The position numbers and the translations under genes are program-made. A stretch of 37,523 nt of DNA, from contig NZ_QLTA01000054.1 of the NCBI RefSeq assembly GCF_003269065.1, forward strand, positions 1 through 37,523. The letters are read 5' to 3'. Of this stretch, positions 30,361-37,523 are shown in pieces (the stretch's first letter is position 1; every line of letters starts with the position of its first letter). Below the pieces are notes generated by a model. That model made no database searches. It had not been told where the DNA came from and saw only the letters and a list, made by a program, of their open reading frames with translations. This DNA comes from Paracidovorax anthurii. Lineage in GTDB: Bacteria > Pseudomonadota > Gammaproteobacteria > Burkholderiales > Burkholderiaceae_C.

Positions 30361-31406
30361 GCGGCGGCTCCGGCGTGGGGTGCATGGGCCACCTGCGTGG
30401 CGGCATGCCCATGGCCGTGCGCGTGATCGTGCCCATGGCCCTGCGCGGGAGCATGCGTGTGCTCGTGGCTATGGCCGTGCCCCAGGTCGTGCGCGATCTC
30501 GCGGTACTTGCAGCCGTCGCAGGGCAGGCGGCTGTCCGGCAGGCCGGCCACCAGGTCGGCCACGCGCTGCTCCAGCAGGGCGAAGATCTCGGGCTCCATG
30601 CCGAAGTGGCGCGACTGCGCGAAGCGCACCTGCGGGTACTGAACCCGCAGGTGCTCCACCTGCCGGCCGATGCGCTGCATCAGCGTGCCGGTGTAGAGGT
30701 AGTAGGGCAGCACCACGATCTGCCGCATGCCCAGCAGCACCTGGCGCTGCACCACGCGCTCCAGGCGCGGCCAGGTGATGCCGGTGAAGGCGATCTCCAC
30801 CAGCTCGTGGTGGCCGTCCTCCTGCAGCCAGCGCGCCATCTTGGCGACGTCGCCGTTGGCCTGCCGGTCGGACGAGCCCCGGCCCAGCAGCACCACGCCG
30901 GTGGTGGTGGGATCGGGCACGTCCAGCGCCTGCATGCAGTCGCGCAGCTGGCGCTGCAGGATCTGCAGGATGGGCTCGCAGGCCGTGAGGTGCGGGCCGT
31001 AGAGGAACTGCACGCCCGGGCAGTGGGCGCGCGCGTGCTCGATGGATTCGGGGATCTCCATCTTCACGTGGCCGGCCGCGTTCAGGATGAGCGGCAGCAC
31101 CAGCACGCGGCGGCTGCCCTTCGCGGCCAGCAGCAGGCCGTCGTGCAGCGAGGGCGGCGCGAACTCGATGAAGCACACCTCGATGCGCCAGCCGGGCCGG
31201 CGCGCGCGCCACTGGCGCACGAAGGCATGGATCTCGTCGTTGCCCTCGGGCTCGCGCGAGCCGTGGCCGACCAGCAGCACCGTGGTGCCGGTGAGCGCGA
31301 GGGCATCGACAGCGCCGGCTGCATGGCCATGATCGTGATCGTGATCGTGATCGTGAGAATGCCCATGGGAATGGCCGTGGGCGTGCGGGGCGTGGAGGTG
31401 CGTCAT
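30357..31406 (-). CDS. cbiX: Long-form sirohydrochlorin cobaltochelatase with His-rich tails at both ends
   Basis: A 349-residue CbiX that inserts Co2+ into sirohydrochlorin early in the pathway. The catalytic His48 lies in VLLVGHGSREPEGN, and the second half repeats the fold with GRGSSDRQANGD in place of GHGS. Residues 3-29 are nearly all His/Asp/Gly/Ser (HSHGHSHDHDHDHDHGH), and residues about 306-344 are a second His-rich tail. A C-x2-C pair (C296, C299 in PCDGCKYRE) recalls the Fe-S motif of other CbiX proteins. The tails probably store or deliver cobalt. The start (MTHLHAPH) overlaps the cobM stop. Confidence 0.93.
   Translation of the reverse strand: MTHLHAPHAHGHSHGHSHDHDHDHDHGHAAGAVDALALTGTTVLLVGHGSREPEGNDEIHAFVRQWRARRPGWRIEVCFIEFAPPSLHDGLLLAAKGSRRVLVLPLILNAAGHVKMEIPESIEHARAHCPGVQFLYGPHLTACEPILQILQRQLRDCMQALDVPDPTTTGVVLLGRGSSDRQANGDVAKMARWLQEDGHHELVEIAFTGITWPRLERVVQRQVLLGMRQIVVLPYYLYTGTLMQRIGRQVEHLRVQYPQVRFAQSRHFGMEPEIFALLEQRVADLVAGLPDSRLPCDGCKYREIAHDLGHGHSHEHTHAPAQGHGHDHAHGHGHAATQVAHAPHAGAAA
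31331..31354. repeat. GATCGT hexamer repeated four times inside cbiX
   Basis: Four perfect copies of GATCGT encode, on the minus strand, part of the His-Asp run in the N-terminal tail of CbiX. A six-base unit changes the tail length by His-Asp pairs without shifting the frame, so slippage could tune metal-binding capacity. The tract is short. Confidence 0.85.
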
Positions 31407-32281
31407 CGTAGGGTGTCCGGCGTGGTGCTGAGGGCGTGCGTGCCGTCCGGCGCATCGCTCGCGCGCCTGAAACGGTGGGTGAAACCCGGGTCGTAGAGTT
31501 TGGATTTGGCGAGCTGCGGCCACTGGCGCGCGCCCAGCGTGGGGCTAGCGATGATCATGGCCTGGCTCACCACCTGGGCCTCGCGGCAGCGCTCGCGCAC
31601 GTCGGCCAGCGTGCAGCGCACGATGCGCTCCTCGCCCGGCCAGGAGGCCTTATGCACCACCAGTAGCGGCGCATCGTCGGCCCAGCCGGCCTCGCGCAGC
31701 CCCGCCTGCACCTTGTGCAGCAGCGTGATCGACAGAAAGATGCACAGCGTGCAGTGGTGCCGCGCCAGCTCGGCGAGCGATTCGCCCGGCGGCATGGGCG
31801 TGCGGCCCTCCACGCGCGTGAAGACCACCGTCTGCGTGACCTCGGGCAGCGTGAAGCTCTCCACCGCCGCCGCGGCCGACGCCATGGCCGAGGACACCCC
31901 CGGCACCACGCGCACCGGCACGCCCGCCGCGTCGAGCGGCTGCACCAGCTCGATGAGCGCGCCGTAGAGGGCCGGGTCGCCCGTCTGCAGGCGCACCACG
32001 GTGCGGTGCTTCTGCGCCTGCAGCACGAGCCAGGCGGCCATCTGGTCGAGCGTCATGGACTTGCTGTCGGCGATGGTGCAGCCCGGCGGCGCCCAGCGCG
32101 TGGCGGTCTCGTCCACGAGCGAGCCCGCGAACAGGATGGCGCCCGCGCGCTCGACCAGCGAGCGGCCCTTGACGGTGATGAGGTCCGGATCGCCGGGGCC
32201 GGCCCCGACGAACCAGACCGTGCCCGGCCCCGCTGCCGCGGCATCGCAGGCCCCGGGGGCGTGCGCCGAAGAATCTGGCAT
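31403..32281 (-). CDS. cobM: Precorrin-4 C11-methyltransferase
   Basis: This 292-residue CobM/CbiF methylates C11 of (cobalt-)precorrin-4. The glycine loop VWFVGAGPGDPDLITVKG follows a 20-residue Ala-rich lead (MPDSSAHAPGACDAAAAG). Further landmarks are VRLQTGDPALYGALIELVQP, VVPGVSSAMASAAAAVES and QTVVFTRVEGRTPMPPGE. The ATG at 32281 is the natural start: the frame remains open upstream only because it runs through the riboswitch region. It is the first gene of the operon, about 100 nt after the riboswitch. A decayed copy of its first codons lies at 33345-33408. Confidence 0.93.
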   Translation of the reverse strand: MPDSSAHAPGACDAAAAGPGTVWFVGAGPGDPDLITVKGRSLVERAGAILFAGSLVDETATRWAPPGCTIADSKSMTLDQMAAWLVLQAQKHRTVVRLQTGDPALYGALIELVQPLDAAGVPVRVVPGVSSAMASAAAAVESFTLPEVTQTVVFTRVEGRTPMPPGESLAELARHHCTLCIFLSITLLHKVQAGLREAGWADDAPLLVVHKASWPGEERIVRCTLADVRERCREAQVVSQAMIIASPTLGARQWPQLAKSKLYDPGFTHRFRRASDAPDGTHALSTTPDTLR

Positions 32282-32292
32282 GGAAAGCGACG

Positions 32293-32330
32293 AAGAAAAA
32301 AAGATGCGCCCGAAAGCGCGCCCGGCGCCC
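32293..32330 (-). terminator. Candidate riboswitch-controlled terminator in the cobM leader
   Basis: In the minus-strand transcript, GCGCC...GGGCGC arms (around a spacer) are followed by atcttttttc just before the cobM ATG. The stem is short (5 bp plus alternatives), so termination strength is uncertain. Its position between the riboswitch and cobM fits the expression platform. The T run is also kept in the decayed copy at 33409-33415. Confidence 0.4.
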
Positions 32331-32369
32331 TGCCTCCCCGCAGGATCCGTGAATGGAGCGCGCCTGCAC

Positions 32370-32622
32370 GGCGCACCCCCCTGTCGGCCGGTATCCGGGC
32401 TGGCGGTGCGGCGGGTGTGCCGGGCTCCCGGGCCCTTCCCGGATGCCGGGAGGCATCCAGTGGGCATCGTTTCCAGGGGCCGAAGGCGACGCCGGAAAAA
32501 GCGCGCCTTCCATCGCTGACCGTTGCGGGGGCAGCCCAGGCCGGGGCGCGCGTCCATGGCGGACAGGCCCTTCCTGGTTCCCGTTTAACTGCGCGGCCGG
32601 AAGCGGCCGCGCGGGCACCAAC
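32370..32622 (-). promoter_or_regulatory. Cobalamin (B12) riboswitch controlling the cob operon
   Basis: On the minus strand the order of conserved elements is exact: a gggaacc start (about 32577-32583), the core GCTGCCCCCGCAACGGTCAGC region (complement of 32515-32535), an ACTGGATGCC section, gggaagg, and the B12 box AGCCCGGATACCGGCC (complement of 32386-32401). These are the hallmarks of the adenosylcobalamin aptamer. Binding of B12 turns the operon off, so the biosynthesis genes are feedback-regulated. Boundaries are approximate to 10-15 nt. It starts right after a TATACT -10 box. Confidence 0.93.
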
Positions 32623-32629
32623 GGGCGCG

Positions 32630-32635
32630 AGTATA
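32630..32635 (-). promoter_or_regulatory. Probable -10 box of the cob operon promoter
   Basis: The minus strand reads TATACT, a near-consensus -10, 8-10 nt before the riboswitch's 5' end. No good -35 is visible at 17 bp upstream, where the DNA is a GC run. An isolated AT hexamer at the right place in very GC-rich DNA supports the call. Confidence 0.5.
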
Positions 32636-32770
32636 GGACGGGTCCGCCCCGGGCGTTCCGGGCCCCGGAGGCATCGCCCCGGTCCAGAAGGTTTCAGGAG
32701 TCTTCAGGCGGATTCACGCGCCCGCAACGGACCCCGCGACACAATGAAATGGCCTCAAGAGAGGGGGCGG

Positions 32771-32795
32771 GAGCCACCGGGTCATTCGGCGGCTC
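32771..32795 (+). other. Leader hairpin before the MABP-like gene
   Basis: GAGCCACCG (32771-32779) and CGGCGGCTC (32787-32795) pair as a 9-bp stem with one mismatch and a 7-base loop. It lies 30 nt before the ATG of the MABP-like gene, whose immediate upstream sequence (acattcacatcaaaa) lacks a purine ribosome site. The stem may affect initiation. The rest of 32636-32770 shows no other structure I can support. Confidence 0.45.
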
Positions 32796-32825
32796 TCTGG
32801 ATCAACCAACACATTCACATCAAAA

Positions 32826-33281
32826 ATGGCACTTACCAATCTGACCGTTCAAGCCGACGACCGCGCAGGCCCTCTGTACCAGCCGGGCTGGGATTTCTAC
32901 ACCACCGACCTCAACCAGGGCGCGGGCGGCAAGTACATCTATGTCGGCTACCAGCAAGGCACGAACAACCCCATCACCGAGGTGAACTTCCAAGCCTACG
33001 ACAGTGCGCAGAGCAACTCCATTCCGGGGTGGGAATGGTCCCCCGTGGACCTCAACGAAGGCGCGGGCGGCAAGTACATCTACATGTACTGGAAGCGGGG
33101 CGGCGCGAAGCCCGTCACGAACCTGATGTTCCTCGCCCTCAATGAGTCGTCGCCCCCGTCGATCCCGGGCTGGACGCACGTGGGCCCCGACCTCAACGAA
33201 GGTGCCGGCGGCGCCTACATCTGGGCCTACTACTCCAACACGATCCAGCTGTCCACCGCCAAGGTGAAGGTCCTGCGCTGA
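32826..33281 (+). CDS. MABP/beta-prism-like three-repeat protein
   Basis: A 151-residue protein made almost wholly of three repeats in exact 47-residue phase. Each carries P-G-W (20, 67, 114) followed by a strand pair with the motif D-L-N-(E/Q)-G-A-G-G (28, 75, 122), an aromatic K/A-Y-I-Y/W strand, and a short link. This G-A-G-G plus aromatic strand pattern is the hallmark of the MABP (MVB12-associated beta-prism) domain, found in eukaryotic ESCRT proteins and in bacterial MACPF-type and secreted proteins. It should fold as a beta-prism that binds membranes or glycans. No signal peptide or ribosome site is visible. The gene is divergent from the cob operon and shares its intergenic region with the riboswitch. 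Confidence 0.82.
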   Translation: MALTNLTVQADDRAGPLYQPGWDFYTTDLNQGAGGKYIYVGYQQGTNNPITEVNFQAYDSAQSNSIPGWEWSPVDLNEGAGGKYIYMYWKRGGAKPVTNLMFLALNESSPPSIPGWTHVGPDLNEGAGGAYIWAYYSNTIQLSTAKVKVLR

Positions 33282-33290
33282 CGTGCAGCG

Positions 33291-33320
33291 GCCCCCGCGG
33301 AGCCACGGCTCCGCGGGGGC
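33291..33320 (+). terminator. 14-bp-arm hairpin at the end of the MABP-like gene
   Basis: GCCCCCGCGGAGCC and GGCTCCGCGGGGGC are perfect inverted arms around AC (effectively a 12-bp stem with a 6-base loop), 10 nt after the stop. No U run follows, so it may be a factor-dependent terminator or an end protector. A close copy lies at 35525-35554 after the esterase. Confidence 0.7.
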
Positions 33321-33344
33321 CTTCATGCCACGCCGTTTTTCCAG

Positions 33345-33480
33345 CCGCTGCCGCGGCATTGCAGGCTCCGGGCGCATGGGCCGAAGAACCCGGCACGGAC
33401 AGCAACGAAAAAAACAGGCCCCCCAACGCGCCCGGCGCCTTGCCGGGCAGGCGCGCCGTTCATCGCGGACCGATGCGGGG
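33345..33480 (-). pseudogene. Decayed copy of the cobM start and riboswitch core
   Basis: 33345-33408 matches 32230-32293 (cobM codons 1-17 plus leader) at 54 of 64 bases, ungapped. The cobM ATG became GTG here, but the frame still gives SSAHAPGACNAAAAAG. 33427-33439 is identical to 32317-32329 (13 bases). 33451-33480 matches 32501-32530 at 26 of 30 bases, in the riboswitch core. About 170 bases of aptamer, including the B12 box, are missing between these parts. It runs on the minus strand, toward the end of the MABP-like gene, and is presumably non-functional. Confidence 0.85.
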
Positions 33481-33529
33481 CACCGCTCCCCGGGGCATTG
33501 GAAACAAAGAGAAAAAGAGAGAGGGAACC

Positions 33530-35485
33530 ATGCGACATCCGCAATCCATCCGACGCGCCTGGCTGGCGCTGTCGATCACCGCCGTCCTGTCGGGCCTCGC
33601 CGGCCCCGCAGCGGCGGTGGCCACCCGGGCCAGCGCCGCGCCCTCCTGCGCCAGCGGTACCACCGCCACCTTCGGCAGCGGCGCTTCCGCGCCTTCCGTG
33701 TGCGGAACGCAGGCCTCCATCACGCCGGCGGGGGCCTCATCGCCCGTCGCGGTGAACACCTACCTCGGCCTCCAGTACGCCACGGCGGCACGGTTCAAGC
33801 CGCCGGTGCTGCAGCAGCCCACGGGCAGCAACGTCGCGCAGACCGTGGCCGGGGCCTTCTGCCCGCAGGCCGACCGGCCCAACATCCCGACCGCGGCGCA
33901 GAGCGAGAACTGCCTCTACCTGAACGTTTTCACGCCGAATGCGGCCGTCGGCTCGTCCAGCCCGCTGCCGGTGCTGTTCTTCATCCATGGCGGCGCTTTC
34001 GTGGAAGGCAGCGGATACATGCCGGTCGGCAAGGGCAATCTCTATGACGGCTCCTACCTCGCCGCGACCGGCAACATGGTGGTGGTGACCATCAATTACC
34101 GCCTGGGCGCACTGGGCTTCCTGGCGATCGACAGCGCGGTCGAGAACGCATCGCTGGGCGGGCCGCTGCAGGGCAACTTCGGCATCCTCGACCAGCAGCA
34201 GGCGCTGCAGTGGGTGCAGCAGTACATCGGCGCGTTCGGCGGCGACCCTGCCCGCGTCACCGTCGCGGGCGAGAGCGCCGGGGCCATGTCCACGGGGCTG
34301 CACCTGTTCGCCGCGCCGAAGAGCGCGCCGCTGTTCCGCGCCGCGATCATGGAGAGCAATCCCGTGGGGTCGGTCTACCGGGCGCTGGACAAGGCGCAGG
34401 CGATGGGAAGCGACTTCCGCGGATTGCTGTGCACGCAGATGGGCCTGAAATGCGTGAGCGGCAAGCCCCTCCTGCTGGCCGCCACGGCGCAGCAGATCCT
34501 CAGCGCCCAGGCCGGCAAGCTCATTCCCCAGAAGGGCAAGGCGGTCTCGGCCGTGGAGCGGCAGACCACCGCCGTGCGCCCCCTGGCCGGGCTGCTGGGC
34601 GAAGCCGCTCCGCAGGTCCGGGACGGCCTGCCCTGGTCGCCGACCCAGGACGGCACGGTCATCGCGGGCCAGCCGCTGGCCGGCTATGCCACGGCATCCA
34701 TGCCCGCCAAGCCCTTCGTCTTCGGCATCAACCGGGACGAGGGCGCGGTCTTCGCCAACATGGCCTACCTGAAGCTGGGGAACACGTTGCTCAATCCGCT
34801 CATGGTCAACCAGGGCATGCTCCCGAGGGTCTGGCAAGGCGACAGCGCGAAGATCCTCGCCTACACCGTCGACACGCAGGGCACGAAAACCACGCCGTAC
34901 AAGGCCCCCGCCGCCAGCGCCCCGAGCTACATGAACCGCACGGCAGTGACCCTGTCCAGCATCATCAACGACTTCGCCTTCCGCTGCGGCAACCTCGCCA
35001 TGGCCGACCGCGCAGCCGCGGCCAATGCCAAGGCCAGCCCTGCCCAGCCGGCTTTCGGCTACCTGTTCGCGCAGGCGCCGTTGATCGACCTCTACAGCAG
35101 CGGCACGCCCCCGAAGCCGATCCAGGCCTGCCTGCCGGGCAACGGCAACGTCTGCCACGCCAACGAACTGCCGTATGTCTTCAACACCATCGGCACGGCC
35201 TATGCCGCCTACACCCAGGGCAGCAAGCCGCCGCCTGCGGCCGACCAGACTCTGGCAACCACGATGGCGGCCGCCTGGGCGAGCTTCGTGAACAACCCGT
35301 CGAGCCCCGCGTCCTGGGCGCCGTCCGGCAGCCTGCCGACCACCTGGACGCCCTACGCCGGCACATCGTCGCCCCTGGCGCTGTGGGACACGGCCGGCGC
35401 GGGCAGCGTCGCCGCGGCCACGATCGATGCGGAGGCGAACTGCACCGCGCTGTGGAACACGATCGCGCCCATCGCGGGCAACTGA
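33530..35485 (+). CDS. Secreted type-B carboxylesterase
   Basis: This 651-residue protein has a signal peptide (MRHPQSIRRAWLALSI core, end AAA near 29). The type-B fold shows SENCLYLNVFTP, VLFFIHGGAFVEGSG (oxyanion hole HGGAF), and the nucleophile Ser249 in VTVAGESAGAM. Glu404 (INRDEGAVF) and His543 (CHANELPYVF) complete the triad. It is longer than typical members (500-550) because of a Ser/Ala-rich N-terminal lead and an insert before the Glu loop. It would hydrolyse ester substrates outside the cell. A gagaggga site precedes the ATG. It is flanked by decayed cob-leader (5') and MABP-tail (3') copies. Confidence 0.92.
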   Translation: MRHPQSIRRAWLALSITAVLSGLAGPAAAVATRASAAPSCASGTTATFGSGASAPSVCGTQASITPAGASSPVAVNTYLGLQYATAARFKPPVLQQPTGSNVAQTVAGAFCPQADRPNIPTAAQSENCLYLNVFTPNAAVGSSSPLPVLFFIHGGAFVEGSGYMPVGKGNLYDGSYLAATGNMVVVTINYRLGALGFLAIDSAVENASLGGPLQGNFGILDQQQALQWVQQYIGAFGGDPARVTVAGESAGAMSTGLHLFAAPKSAPLFRAAIMESNPVGSVYRALDKAQAMGSDFRGLLCTQMGLKCVSGKPLLLAATAQQILSAQAGKLIPQKGKAVSAVERQTTAVRPLAGLLGEAAPQVRDGLPWSPTQDGTVIAGQPLAGYATASMPAKPFVFGINRDEGAVFANMAYLKLGNTLLNPLMVNQGMLPRVWQGDSAKILAYTVDTQGTKTTPYKAPAASAPSYMNRTAVTLSSIINDFAFRCGNLAMADRAAAANAKASPAQPAFGYLFAQAPLIDLYSSGTPPKPIQACLPGNGNVCHANELPYVFNTIGTAYAAYTQGSKPPPAADQTLATTMAAAWASFVNNPSSPASWAPSGSLPTTWTPYAGTSSPLALWDTAGAGSVAAATIDAEANCTALWNTIAPIAGN

Positions 35486-35494
35486 GCGCGGGCC

Positions 35495-35554
35495 GGGGTG
35501 ACGGCCCTCCGCTGACGCGCAGCAGCCTCTGCGGAGCCACGGCTCCGCGGAGGC
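35495..35554 (+). repeat. Decayed copy of the MABP-like gene's 3' end and hairpin
   Basis: These 60 bases match 33261-33320 at 50 positions with no gap. The copy includes the equivalent of the last six codons and stop of the MABP-like gene (AAG-GTG-AAG... there, GGG-GTG-ACG... here, both ending CGC-TGA), the short link acg(t/c)gcagc, and the hairpin (arms 35525-35538 and 35541-35554, one G-T wobble). It begins 10 bases after the esterase stop, which is a separate TGA. It is therefore a leftover of a MABP-type gene, and the hairpin probably now ends the esterase message. Confidence 0.85.
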
Positions 35555-35595
35555 TAAACACCATGCCATTTCCAATCCTTGCCCCGGGAGGCCCC

Positions 35596-36933
35596 ATGCC
35601 ATCCATCGCCCTGAATTTCCAGAACGACTCCACCATCGCCGACACGAACGTCTACATCGGCTTCTGGGGAAGCACCCTCAACGCCACGCTCAATGGCGCC
35701 GCCATGGCGGCCAGCACGTGGTATGCGCTGAGCACCATCGACAGCCTCACCCTCGATGCCACGACCAGCGGGCGCATCTACGTGGGGTACGGCATCGATC
35801 CCGCGACCACCGACCCCAACAGCTCGGTGCTGACCGGCAATACCGATCGCTTCGACAAGTTCGAGCTGACCTTCGACGGCTCCAGCTATGGCGTTGCCGA
35901 TCTGACGGCGATCGATTTCTGGAGCATTCCGATGAGCCTGTCCACACAGTTCCAGGGACAGGCCGTGGACCAGCTCGACGGCGTGAAGAGCGGCGCCAGC
36001 GTGAGCGGCATCTACGCCGCGCTGAGCCAGCTCAGCCAGCCCGTGCGGTCCACGCCCACCGCCAAAGGCATCATCGCGGCCTTCGCAGCCCAGGGCACGC
36101 CCCTGCCCACGGGCATCCAGACCGCCCTCACCCAGCCGGCCTCCGGTGTCGTCACCAATGCCCAGGGCGGTTTCGTCCGCGTGATCGGCCCCAACAGCTA
36201 CCCGCCTTTCGGAGACCCTGCGACCAACGCCTATCCCGGCCTGCCCTTCACGCCCTACGACACCTTCGCCGGCTATTTCGGCGACCTCATCGGCACCTTC
36301 GGGCCCGGGACCGCGTCGCCCGCGCCCGGGTTCACCACGCTGGGCAACGGGAAGATCGCCCACATCAAGGGCCAGTTCGCCGGCAACCCCCAGGGCTCGG
36401 GCACGGCCTGCGAGGCGCAGAGCTACGACCTGTGGGCCAGCATCGATGCCCAGTGCAATCTGACCATCGCGGGCAAGACAAGCCTGATCGACCCGGTGTC
36501 GATCACGATCAGCCAATGGAATCTTCTCGACCCCGCATCCTGCTACGGGGCCAACCCCTCGTTCTCGCTGAACGGCGGCGCGCAGCAGACCCCGCAGAAC
36601 GACGTGTATGCGTGGATCCTCGGGGACTTCTTCGCGGGGCTGAACATCGGCGCCATCGGGTCCGCGCAAACGCTCGACAAGGTGGCCGTCGGCGACATGG
36701 CCAGCTCCGAATGGTTCTCCCGGTTGCCGCCCCAGGGACTGCTTTTCGACAAGCTCTGGGGCGCGGGCGTCACCAACCACTGGAACACCTGGGCGCAGGC
36801 GCTGAATCCGCTGTCGGACGCCTACAACTTCGCCTTCGCGGAGCGCTTCTCGGCGCCGCTGATCTCGCTGGACCCGGCCCGGGTCGATACGCTCACCCTG
36901 ACGCTGCTCGATGCCCGCGTGACCGGCTCCTGA
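35596..36933 (+). CDS. GH64-like (beta-1,3-glucanase/thaumatin-fold) protein
   Basis: A 445-residue protein with strand-rich sections. LNFQNDSTIADTNVYIGFWG opens the domain. GRIYVGYGIDP and FDKFELTFDGSSY lead to TAIDFWSIPMSL, a pattern like GH64 glucanases and thaumatin-type folds. The middle has the cysteine pair CEAQSYDLWASIDAQC, and the end (SDAYNFAFAERFSAPLI, then VDTLTLTLLD) matches the C-terminal Y-x-F-x-F-x-E/D element. I cannot assign the catalytic carboxylates with confidence. No signal peptide is present from 35596 (gggagg before ATG) or from the earlier in-frame ATG at 35563. It likely acts on fungal or plant glucans if exported. Confidence 0.6.
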   Translation: MPSIALNFQNDSTIADTNVYIGFWGSTLNATLNGAAMAASTWYALSTIDSLTLDATTSGRIYVGYGIDPATTDPNSSVLTGNTDRFDKFELTFDGSSYGVADLTAIDFWSIPMSLSTQFQGQAVDQLDGVKSGASVSGIYAALSQLSQPVRSTPTAKGIIAAFAAQGTPLPTGIQTALTQPASGVVTNAQGGFVRVIGPNSYPPFGDPATNAYPGLPFTPYDTFAGYFGDLIGTFGPGTASPAPGFTTLGNGKIAHIKGQFAGNPQGSGTACEAQSYDLWASIDAQCNLTIAGKTSLIDPVSITISQWNLLDPASCYGANPSFSLNGGAQQTPQNDVYAWILGDFFAGLNIGAIGSAQTLDKVAVGDMASSEWFSRLPPQGLLFDKLWGAGVTNHWNTWAQALNPLSDAYNFAFAERFSAPLISLDPARVDTLTLTLLDARVTGS

Positions 36934-36940
36934 CCCGCGC

Positions 36941-36977
36941 GCGGCGGGGCACCGGCGGGAACGGCCGGCCCCGCCGC
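36941..36977. terminator. Bidirectional hairpin between convergent genes
   Basis: GCGGCGGGGC (36941-36950) and GCCCCGCCGC (36968-36977) are perfect 10-bp arms around a 17-base loop, in the 54-bp gap between the GH64-like gene and the convergent CsgG-like gene. No T run follows on either side. It could stop both transcripts with factor help. Confidence 0.6.
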
Positions 36978-36987
36978 CGGCAGAGGC

Positions 36988-37523
36988 TCAGCGCGAGAGC
37001 GCGTCCGCCGTGGCCGTGTCCAGCCGCCCCGTCACCGGCAGCCCCTTGTCCTTCTGGTACGTGCGCAGCGCGTTCGCCGTCTTCGGGCCCGCCGAGCCAT
37101 CGGGCGTGCCCACGTCGTAGCCCAGCGCGTTCAGCCGCGCCTGCGCCTCGCGCACCGACATCGCCGTGCCCGCCTTCGTCTGCGACGGCGCCGCGCCACC
37201 ATCCACCCCCAGCCGGCCGCCGCCGCCCAGCCCCTGGCCCTGCACGCTCTGCGCCTTGTAGTTGCGCAGCGCCATCACCATCTGGTTGTACGCATCCATG
37301 AACGCCGCCGTCAGCACCTTGCCCTGCGACGTGTTCTGGTAGCCGCCCAGCGTGCCCCCCGCCGAGCCCCCGAACAGCCCCCCGAAGCCCGCGAAATCGC
37401 TCTTGGAGGCACTGCCCTCCGACACCGACACCTGCACCCCCGAGCGGTTGTCCACCAGCGTCAGCATCGCGCTCGCCTCCCGCGTCTTCAGCGCCCCGCC
37501 CAGCGCGCCGATCGCGCGGCCGC
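36988..37523 (-). CDS. CsgG-like protein with C-terminal peptidoglycan-binding domain (partial)
   Basis: The visible 177 residues are the C-terminal part; the frame is open to the window edge, so the internal Met at 37467 is not the start. The section GALKTREASAMLTLVDNRSG, then VQVSVSEGSASK and YNQMVMALRNYKAQ, resembles the CsgG/HfaB outer-membrane secretion-channel family. A Gly-rich linker leads to a peptidoglycan-binding type-1 domain (VREAQARLNALGYDVG, then GPKTANALRTYQKDKGL and LDTATADAL). The fusion would tie a CsgG-type complex to the cell wall. The N-terminal lipobox lies outside the window. Confidence 0.75.
   Translation of the reverse strand, partial: GRAIGALGGALKTREASAMLTLVDNRSGVQVSVSEGSASKSDFAGFGGLFGGSAGGTLGGYQNTSQGKVLTAAFMDAYNQMVMALRNYKAQSVQGQGLGGGGRLGVDGGAAPSQTKAGTAMSVREAQARLNALGYDVGTPDGSAGPKTANALRTYQKDKGLPVTGRLDTATADALSR

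Follow-up and report, generated by a model that had tools for sequence, protein, structure and literature searches.

The interval beside cobM in Paracidovorax anthurii holds an MABP-like gene, a carboxylesterase gene, the tail of a second MABP-like gene and a GH64-like gene, in this order, and we found that both flanks of the first unit recur around the esterase. Tandem duplication followed by complementary loss is the simplest and best-supported reading of this layout; although not proof, the evidence makes this reading reasonably probable. The window, by which we mean the whole stretch of DNA analysed (37,523 nucleotides), is contig 54 of the 5.47 Mb P. anthurii genome (G000) and was compared within the genus (n = 17 genomes). 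The interval and its borders comprise the following features.

31403..32281, minus strand: cobM-like tetrapyrrole methylase (Pfam TP_methylase, 6e-41), the first cob-cluster gene on this side.
32369..32637, minus strand: intact cobalamin riboswitch of the cob cluster (Rfam RF00174, 38.1 bits, above the gathering score).
32826..33281, plus strand: MABP-like free-standing beta-prism protein of 151 aa (profile match to the C-terminal part of Mpf2Ba1).
33290..33321, plus strand: hairpin behind the MABP-like gene, 14-pair stem (-37 kcal/mol, z -5.36).
33345..33480, plus strand: decayed second copy of the cobM 5' end, the leader and about 30 bases of the riboswitch, at the start of the second unit.
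33530..35485, plus strand: carboxylesterase of 651 aa in an intact frame (Pfam COesterase, PF00135, 1.9e-78).
35492..35515, plus strand: remnant of a second MABP-like gene, its last seven codons and stop (repeat match).
35524..35555, plus strand: second hairpin, 14-pair stem despite five changed bases (-30.4 kcal/mol, z -5.14).
35596..36933, plus strand: GH64-like protein, a weak match (Pfam 5.2e-5, 23.1 bits, below the cut-off of 27).
36988..37467, minus strand: peptidoglycan-binding-domain protein, the right border of the interval, with a second copy, 99% identical, elsewhere in the genome.

Behind the esterase, the tail and hairpin of the MABP-like gene recur as an initial annotation of this DNA had described, with 50 of 60 bases matching between 33261-33320 and 35495-35554, and 53 of 63 when the match is extended (33258-33320 against 35492-35554). 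A search of the genome with an 87-base tail-hairpin query returned the query itself, its palindrome and the second copy (E 4.6e-13); E values were 0.03 or worse for all 40 other matches listed. The tail and hairpin are confined to two places in this genome, and a spread over many unrelated loci was not seen. Genomes of this kind commonly contain strong GC-rich palindromes, which could favour a dispersed repeat or chance similarity, but this explanation is hardly credible here, since the segment occupies two genomic places only, includes a coding tail and is accompanied by a leader scrap in register; the dispersed repeat was accordingly rejected. In the second hairpin, the changes amount to two double changes and one wobble that keep the pairing. 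Random transitions preserve every pair in 7% of trials, and the kept stem is weak evidence that this hairpin still serves as a 3' end.

Before the esterase lies the decayed cob leader, also recognised in the initial annotation, which matches the intact leader at 59 of 70 bases (33345-33414 against 32230-32299). The match extends to 33444, and a further block, 33451-33480, corresponds to 32501-32530 inside the riboswitch, so that the copy comprises the first 52 coding bases of cobM, the 5' UTR and about 30 bases of the aptamer; these 52 bases at the 5' end of cobM form the left end of the duplicated unit. The sole significant Rfam match is the intact riboswitch of the first unit. Both repeat pairs are homologous ends on two adjacent units, in equal order and on the same strand, and a single tandem duplication ending just behind the MABP hairpin accounts for both at once. 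The local tandem duplication that had been proposed is thus supported by the two flanks, and its coordinates fit. By eye, the DNA that follows the first hairpin resembles the MABP-GH64 spacer of G004 and G009 up to a junction near 33343-33345, to the right of which it is cobM.

The leader, riboswitch scrap and tail of the copy match G000 at 159 of 192 positions, G004 at 146 of 192 and G009 at 144 of 192. Over the leader blocks alone, the copy is 73% or less identical to G014, G001, G002, G003, G005 and G006, and was therefore not carried in from those lineages; by these identities, it is of the G000/G004/G009 type. Dating of the duplication with a tree of the leader, riboswitch scrap and tail, whose block limits were chosen by eye, left all three placements standing in the AU test (p 0.82, 0.26 and 0.18).

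Gene content beside cobM differs among relatives, supporting the earlier suggestion of a variable interval. A cobM match is present in 17 of 17 genomes; in G008 it is merely 40% identical, and this genome was left out when the content of the interval was compared in the other 16. The esterase stands beside cobM without an MABP-like gene in G001, G002, G003, G013, G014 and G016, and in G011, where it occurs as two fragments. Two of the 17 genomes, G005 (P. oryzae) and G006, have the esterase followed by the MABP-like gene, and lack both the MABP hairpin of G000, G004 and G009 and the GH64-like gene. G004 and G009 carry the MABP-like gene followed by the GH64-like gene, with no esterase. The GH64-like gene was detected in 3 of 17 genomes at 1e-10 (G000, G004 and G009), always behind the MABP hairpin. 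Esterase, MABP-like and GH64-like genes are all absent from the interval in G010, G012, G015 and G007, the contig of the last seeming to end in the border gene (28-base match); genome-wide, neither esterase nor MABP-like gene was found in 5 of 17 (G007, G008, G010, G012 and G015). The border gene does not adjoin the esterase in G013, G014 and G016. The idea of a slot for different effector genes holds only in that three gene families vary here; no signs of mobility were found at the interval, and Pfam detected no integrase or transposase among the five window proteins scanned. None of the 17 genomes has two MABP-like genes, an arrangement that the initial annotation had suggested looking for.

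We next consider the history of the esterase, which was detected in 10 of 17 genomes at 1e-60 and lies beside cobM in all 10. In each of the nine remaining esterase genomes (G000 excepted), it follows the cob leader at about 0.1-0.4 kb, ahead of any other of these genes, and it adjoins the leader in both halves of the genus. The midpoint-rooted esterase tree separates (G011,(G013,G016)) from (G000,(G014,(G003,(G005,(G002,(G001,G006)))))), with 5 of 7 inner branches over the tool's support threshold, the two innermost below it, and G011 entered as one fragment. The unrooted gyrB tree splits G007, G008, G010, G011, G012, G013, G015 and G016 from the others (support 100) and places G000 with G001, G002, G003, G005, G006 and G014, not with G004 and G009 (support 87; inner grouping 58). 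The two trees are compatible, and the esterase is therefore best read as inherited at this site; on the sequence evidence it is probably an old resident of the locus, not an intruder. We used gyrB as the species tree in preference to 9 kb of cob genes because the latter put G000 outside G004/G009 plus the rest, unlike gyrB, and because the cob genes are mosaic in G007, G013 and G016. The G011 esterase fragment, which like the cob-gene tree complicates this history, is 71% identical to G000, as against 63 and 61% to G001 and G014; unequal rates or a transfer would explain this nearness. Between the G000 esterase and six relatives, dN/dS is 0.42-0.47 (dN 0.21-0.23, dS 0.46-0.51). The COesterase match is nearly full-length (residues 72-612, profile positions 23-489 of 515), the N-terminus appears signal-peptide-like by eye, and compared with the COesterase family we saw nothing unusual in the protein itself.

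The initial annotation had offered a different history, in which the leader-MABP-hairpin unit was duplicated and an unrelated esterase of outside origin took the place of the second MABP body. We consider this unlikely. The flanks are as that annotation described them, no esterase scrap is found in copy 1, and G004 and G009 have leader, MABP-like gene and hairpin without an esterase, making an esterase-free ancestral unit conceivable. However, nine other species have the esterase at the corresponding position, its tree agrees with descent inside the genus, and it is found more widely than MABP (10 of 17 genomes, against 5 of 17). Nor does it look like a newcomer: the order esterase then MABP already exists in G005 and G006, and the 12-18 bases before its start match the native flank of G001, G003, G005 and G014 (0-1 of 500 shuffles), a match by which the G000 esterase is seen to keep a short native 5' flank. 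A donor would also have to be joined precisely between leader scrap and MABP tail. As a separate candidate, an origin in another genus of the family is not supported, as 3 of 399 sampled family genomes match at 1e-100, all of this genus (three candidates scored per genome, donors within the family only). The observation behind the earlier account was correct, and the direction of its story is probably reversed.

Under tandem duplication and complementary loss, the ancestor would have had the order cobM, leader, esterase, MABP, hairpin, (GH64-like gene) and border gene. A stretch reaching from roughly codon 17 of cobM to a point just past the MABP hairpin would have been duplicated in tandem, after which copy 1 would have lost the esterase and kept the MABP-like gene, and copy 2 would have kept the esterase while losing the MABP-like gene, except for its last seven codons, stop and hairpin, and seeing most of its leader decay. 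The net result would be a change from esterase-MABP to MABP-esterase. The second unit, with its esterase and then MABP tail, has the order of G005 and G006, so that duplication of a leader-esterase-MABP-hairpin block yields the layout, and the MABP tail remnant is present at the predicted place in copy 2. In copy 1 of G000, we found no esterase scrap (192-275 of 300 shuffles score as well), and the search for an esterase remnant in G004 and G009 gave one of three comparisons that was weakly better (12 and 8 of 300 shuffles). Since the full order esterase-MABP-hairpin-GH64 was likewise found in none of the 16 genomes whose interval was compared, we infer the route, that is, the duplicated ancestor and the order of losses, from the observed flanks, gene orders and esterase tree. 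As to descent from a local ancestor, the esterase tree fits gyrB, and the MABP-like gene offers five sequences in the genus, with a 99% identical tract among them.

The promoters of the MABP-like genes bear on the same question. In G004 and G009, the right half of this promoter matches the esterase-MABP spacer of G005 and G006 (scores 33-41; 0 of 300 shuffles) and fails to match leader-esterase sequence (17-19; 51-152 of 300). For the left half, the best match is to leader-esterase sequence (28-33; 0-6 of 300), followed by a poorer one to the esterase-MABP spacer of G005 (24; 2-3 of 300). This pattern is what one would expect had an esterase been lost from between two TTCAG promoters. For G000 the scores are mixed, the right half favouring leader-esterase sequence of G003 (32; 0 of 300), and the promoter join is therefore not proven in this genome.

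Recombination has also acted at the locus, since about 300 bases of the MABP-like gene are 99% identical between G000 and G004, and the blocks adjoining them 83-84%. This tract could point to an alternative, in which a cobM-leader-MABP-hairpin segment from a P. konjaci-like relative recombined in front of a resident leader-esterase-(MABP)-hairpin-GH64 arrangement of G000. Such an event would fit the low dS of the G000 MABP-like gene (0.09 to G004 and 0.14 to G009, compared with cobM at 0.235 and the GH64-like gene at 0.29), as well as the mosaic histories of cob genes in other species. Yet the cobM of G000 is about as far from that of G004 (dS 0.235) as is gyrB (0.20), and the leader and tail copies lie closest to those of G000 itself, although not significantly by the AU test. 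We judge such an event improbable, and retain duplication with complementary loss as the preferred reading.

The MABP-like gene was found in 5 of 17 genomes at 1e-3, one copy each, and in 2 of 399 sampled family genomes at 1e-5, both of this genus. A scan of public genomes recovered relatives in Azospirillum, two Photobacterium, Pseudoalteromonas and Thalassospira (59-68%), and this suggests that the gene was acquired laterally. Pfam assigned no family to the protein at 0.001, and none matched even at 10. A profile built from eight relatives matches Mpf2Ba1 (a 483 aa chain) at residues 359-477 only (E 2e-18). With a predicted model (mean pLDDT 90.5), Foldseek returned Mpf2Ba1 (8b6v; E 6.2e-10, TM 0.81), the MACPF protein 2qp2 and, more weakly, the MABP domain of human MVB12B (3tow; E 5.9e-3). 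Three DLN motifs, at residues 28-30, 75-77 and 122-124, are invariant in eight sequences; in Mpf2Ba1, as described in PMC10344926, three such motifs hold a metal ion in the prism. The protein encoded here is alike in fold and in its three DLN motifs to the C-terminal beta-prism of Mpf2Ba1 (PDB 8b6u, 8b6v), and its fold likewise resembles the MVB12B MABP domain. It differs from Mpf2Ba1 in being the beta-prism domain alone, the pore-forming MACPF domain being absent from its 151 aa, and the MABP label first given to it holds.

Upstream of both genes, we observed a direct repeat, which in the window lies before the MABP-like gene.

32683..32709, plus strand: TTCAG direct repeats, a candidate operator upstream of the MABP-like gene (motif search, shuffles).

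The repeat, TTCAG(A/G)A-N2..5-TTCA(G/T), precedes the MABP-like gene by 125-137 bases in 5 of 5 genomes. It also precedes the esterase, by 119-157 bases, in 6 of the 7 genomes examined, the exception being G000; none of 1000 shuffles generated from each of five upstream regions contained it. The G011 locus also has one TTCAG repeat, and none was seen at the locus in G013, G016 and four compared genomes without these genes. The stricter form TTCAG(A/G)A-N3..4-TTCAG has 25 matches in five genomes, some overlapping, against 1 for a reversed control. Of 15 further repeat loci inspected, 5 had no ORF of at least 70 aa starting within 400 bases downstream, and small proteins tested from G005 and G014 (L147 and L148) had no Pfam match. 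In G000, one repeat lies between a gene for a ferritin-like protein and a divergent Trans_reg_C-TPR regulator gene. By eye, G004 has a similar regulator, and repeats in other genomes adjoin genes resembling a PixA/AidA-type protein and a ricin-type lectin. That the Trans_reg_C-TPR regulator binds the TTCAG repeats is our guess.

The G000 esterase has lost the repeats that most relatives carry, and the MABP-like gene keeps them. We therefore guess that transcription of the esterase probably relies on read-through from the MABP side or is weak, and that its 3' end is probably provided by the inherited hairpin. A scan of 32600-37000 for sigma-70 promoters and terminators gave 0 promoters and 1 terminator-like site, inside a gene. 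As a tentative and rather doubtful proposal, the interval beside cobM may be a recurrently rearranging site in which the esterase and beta-prism genes each have a TTCAG operator, the operator repeats drive deletions and reorderings, and a winged-helix TPR regulator, itself encoded next to such repeats, governs a small regulon comprising lectin-like, inclusion-type and secreted proteins.

The locus is an instance, at an accessory site, of a rearrangement of an already known kind. Tandem duplication-random loss has been described for mitochondrial gene orders (PMC5745709, PMC4223735), and the likeness lies in a block being copied, different genes being lost from each copy, the order being changed and non-coding scraps being left. 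The present case differs from these in involving a bacterial chromosome and two accessory genes, and in a duplicated stage deduced rather than seen. Our literature searches returned nothing on duplication-random loss with bacterial genome or operon, on tandem duplication with gene order and reciprocal loss in Escherichia coli, or on Acidovorax MABP or Paracidovorax carboxylesterase. With its scraps preserved, the locus offers a legible example of how neighbouring genes in a bacterium can exchange their order by duplication and complementary loss, and an account of gene replacement that was plausible, but probably ran in the wrong direction, is thereby corrected. Reordering beside a conserved operon can, we suggest, be regulatory, as the second-placed esterase is without the repeats that most relatives have. 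The rare, non-random repeat, common to the genes for a free-standing beta-prism protein and an esterase and to a few others, makes for a putative small regulon that can be tested.

Within the MABP-like gene, a tract of about 300 bases (window:32895-33194) is 99% identical between P. anthurii (G000) and P. konjaci (G004), whereas the adjoining 150-base blocks share 83-84% identity, so that this stretch looks like a recombination tract. The cob cluster of three further Paracidovorax genomes is mosaic, with a breakpoint near cobM: their cobM and gyrB cluster with those of G010, G011, G012 and G015, whereas the adjoining 9 kb of cob genes are 93.5-95.4% identical to those of P. oryzae (G005):

L116, L121, L124: cob genes of G007, G013, G016

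In G011 the esterase match is split between the neighbouring stretches L045 and L046, one part covering residues 1-335 and the other residues 336-650, and is a putative broken copy of the resident carboxylesterase gene beside cobM.

The border gene, near which some contigs stop, encodes a peptidoglycan-binding domain:

window:36988-37467: border gene
G000:C23:140-616: second copy

The two P. anthurii copies are 99% identical and several relatives also carry at least two, suggesting exchange between copies.

The TTCAG direct repeat is a rare motif (4-7 matches per genome), and searching five genomes returned 25 matches versus 1 for the control, with sites including:

L145:1501-1517
L147
L166
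window:32683-32709, upstream of the MABP-like gene

One match adjoins a divergent Trans_reg_C-TPR regulator gene, and these sites could possibly constitute a small regulon.
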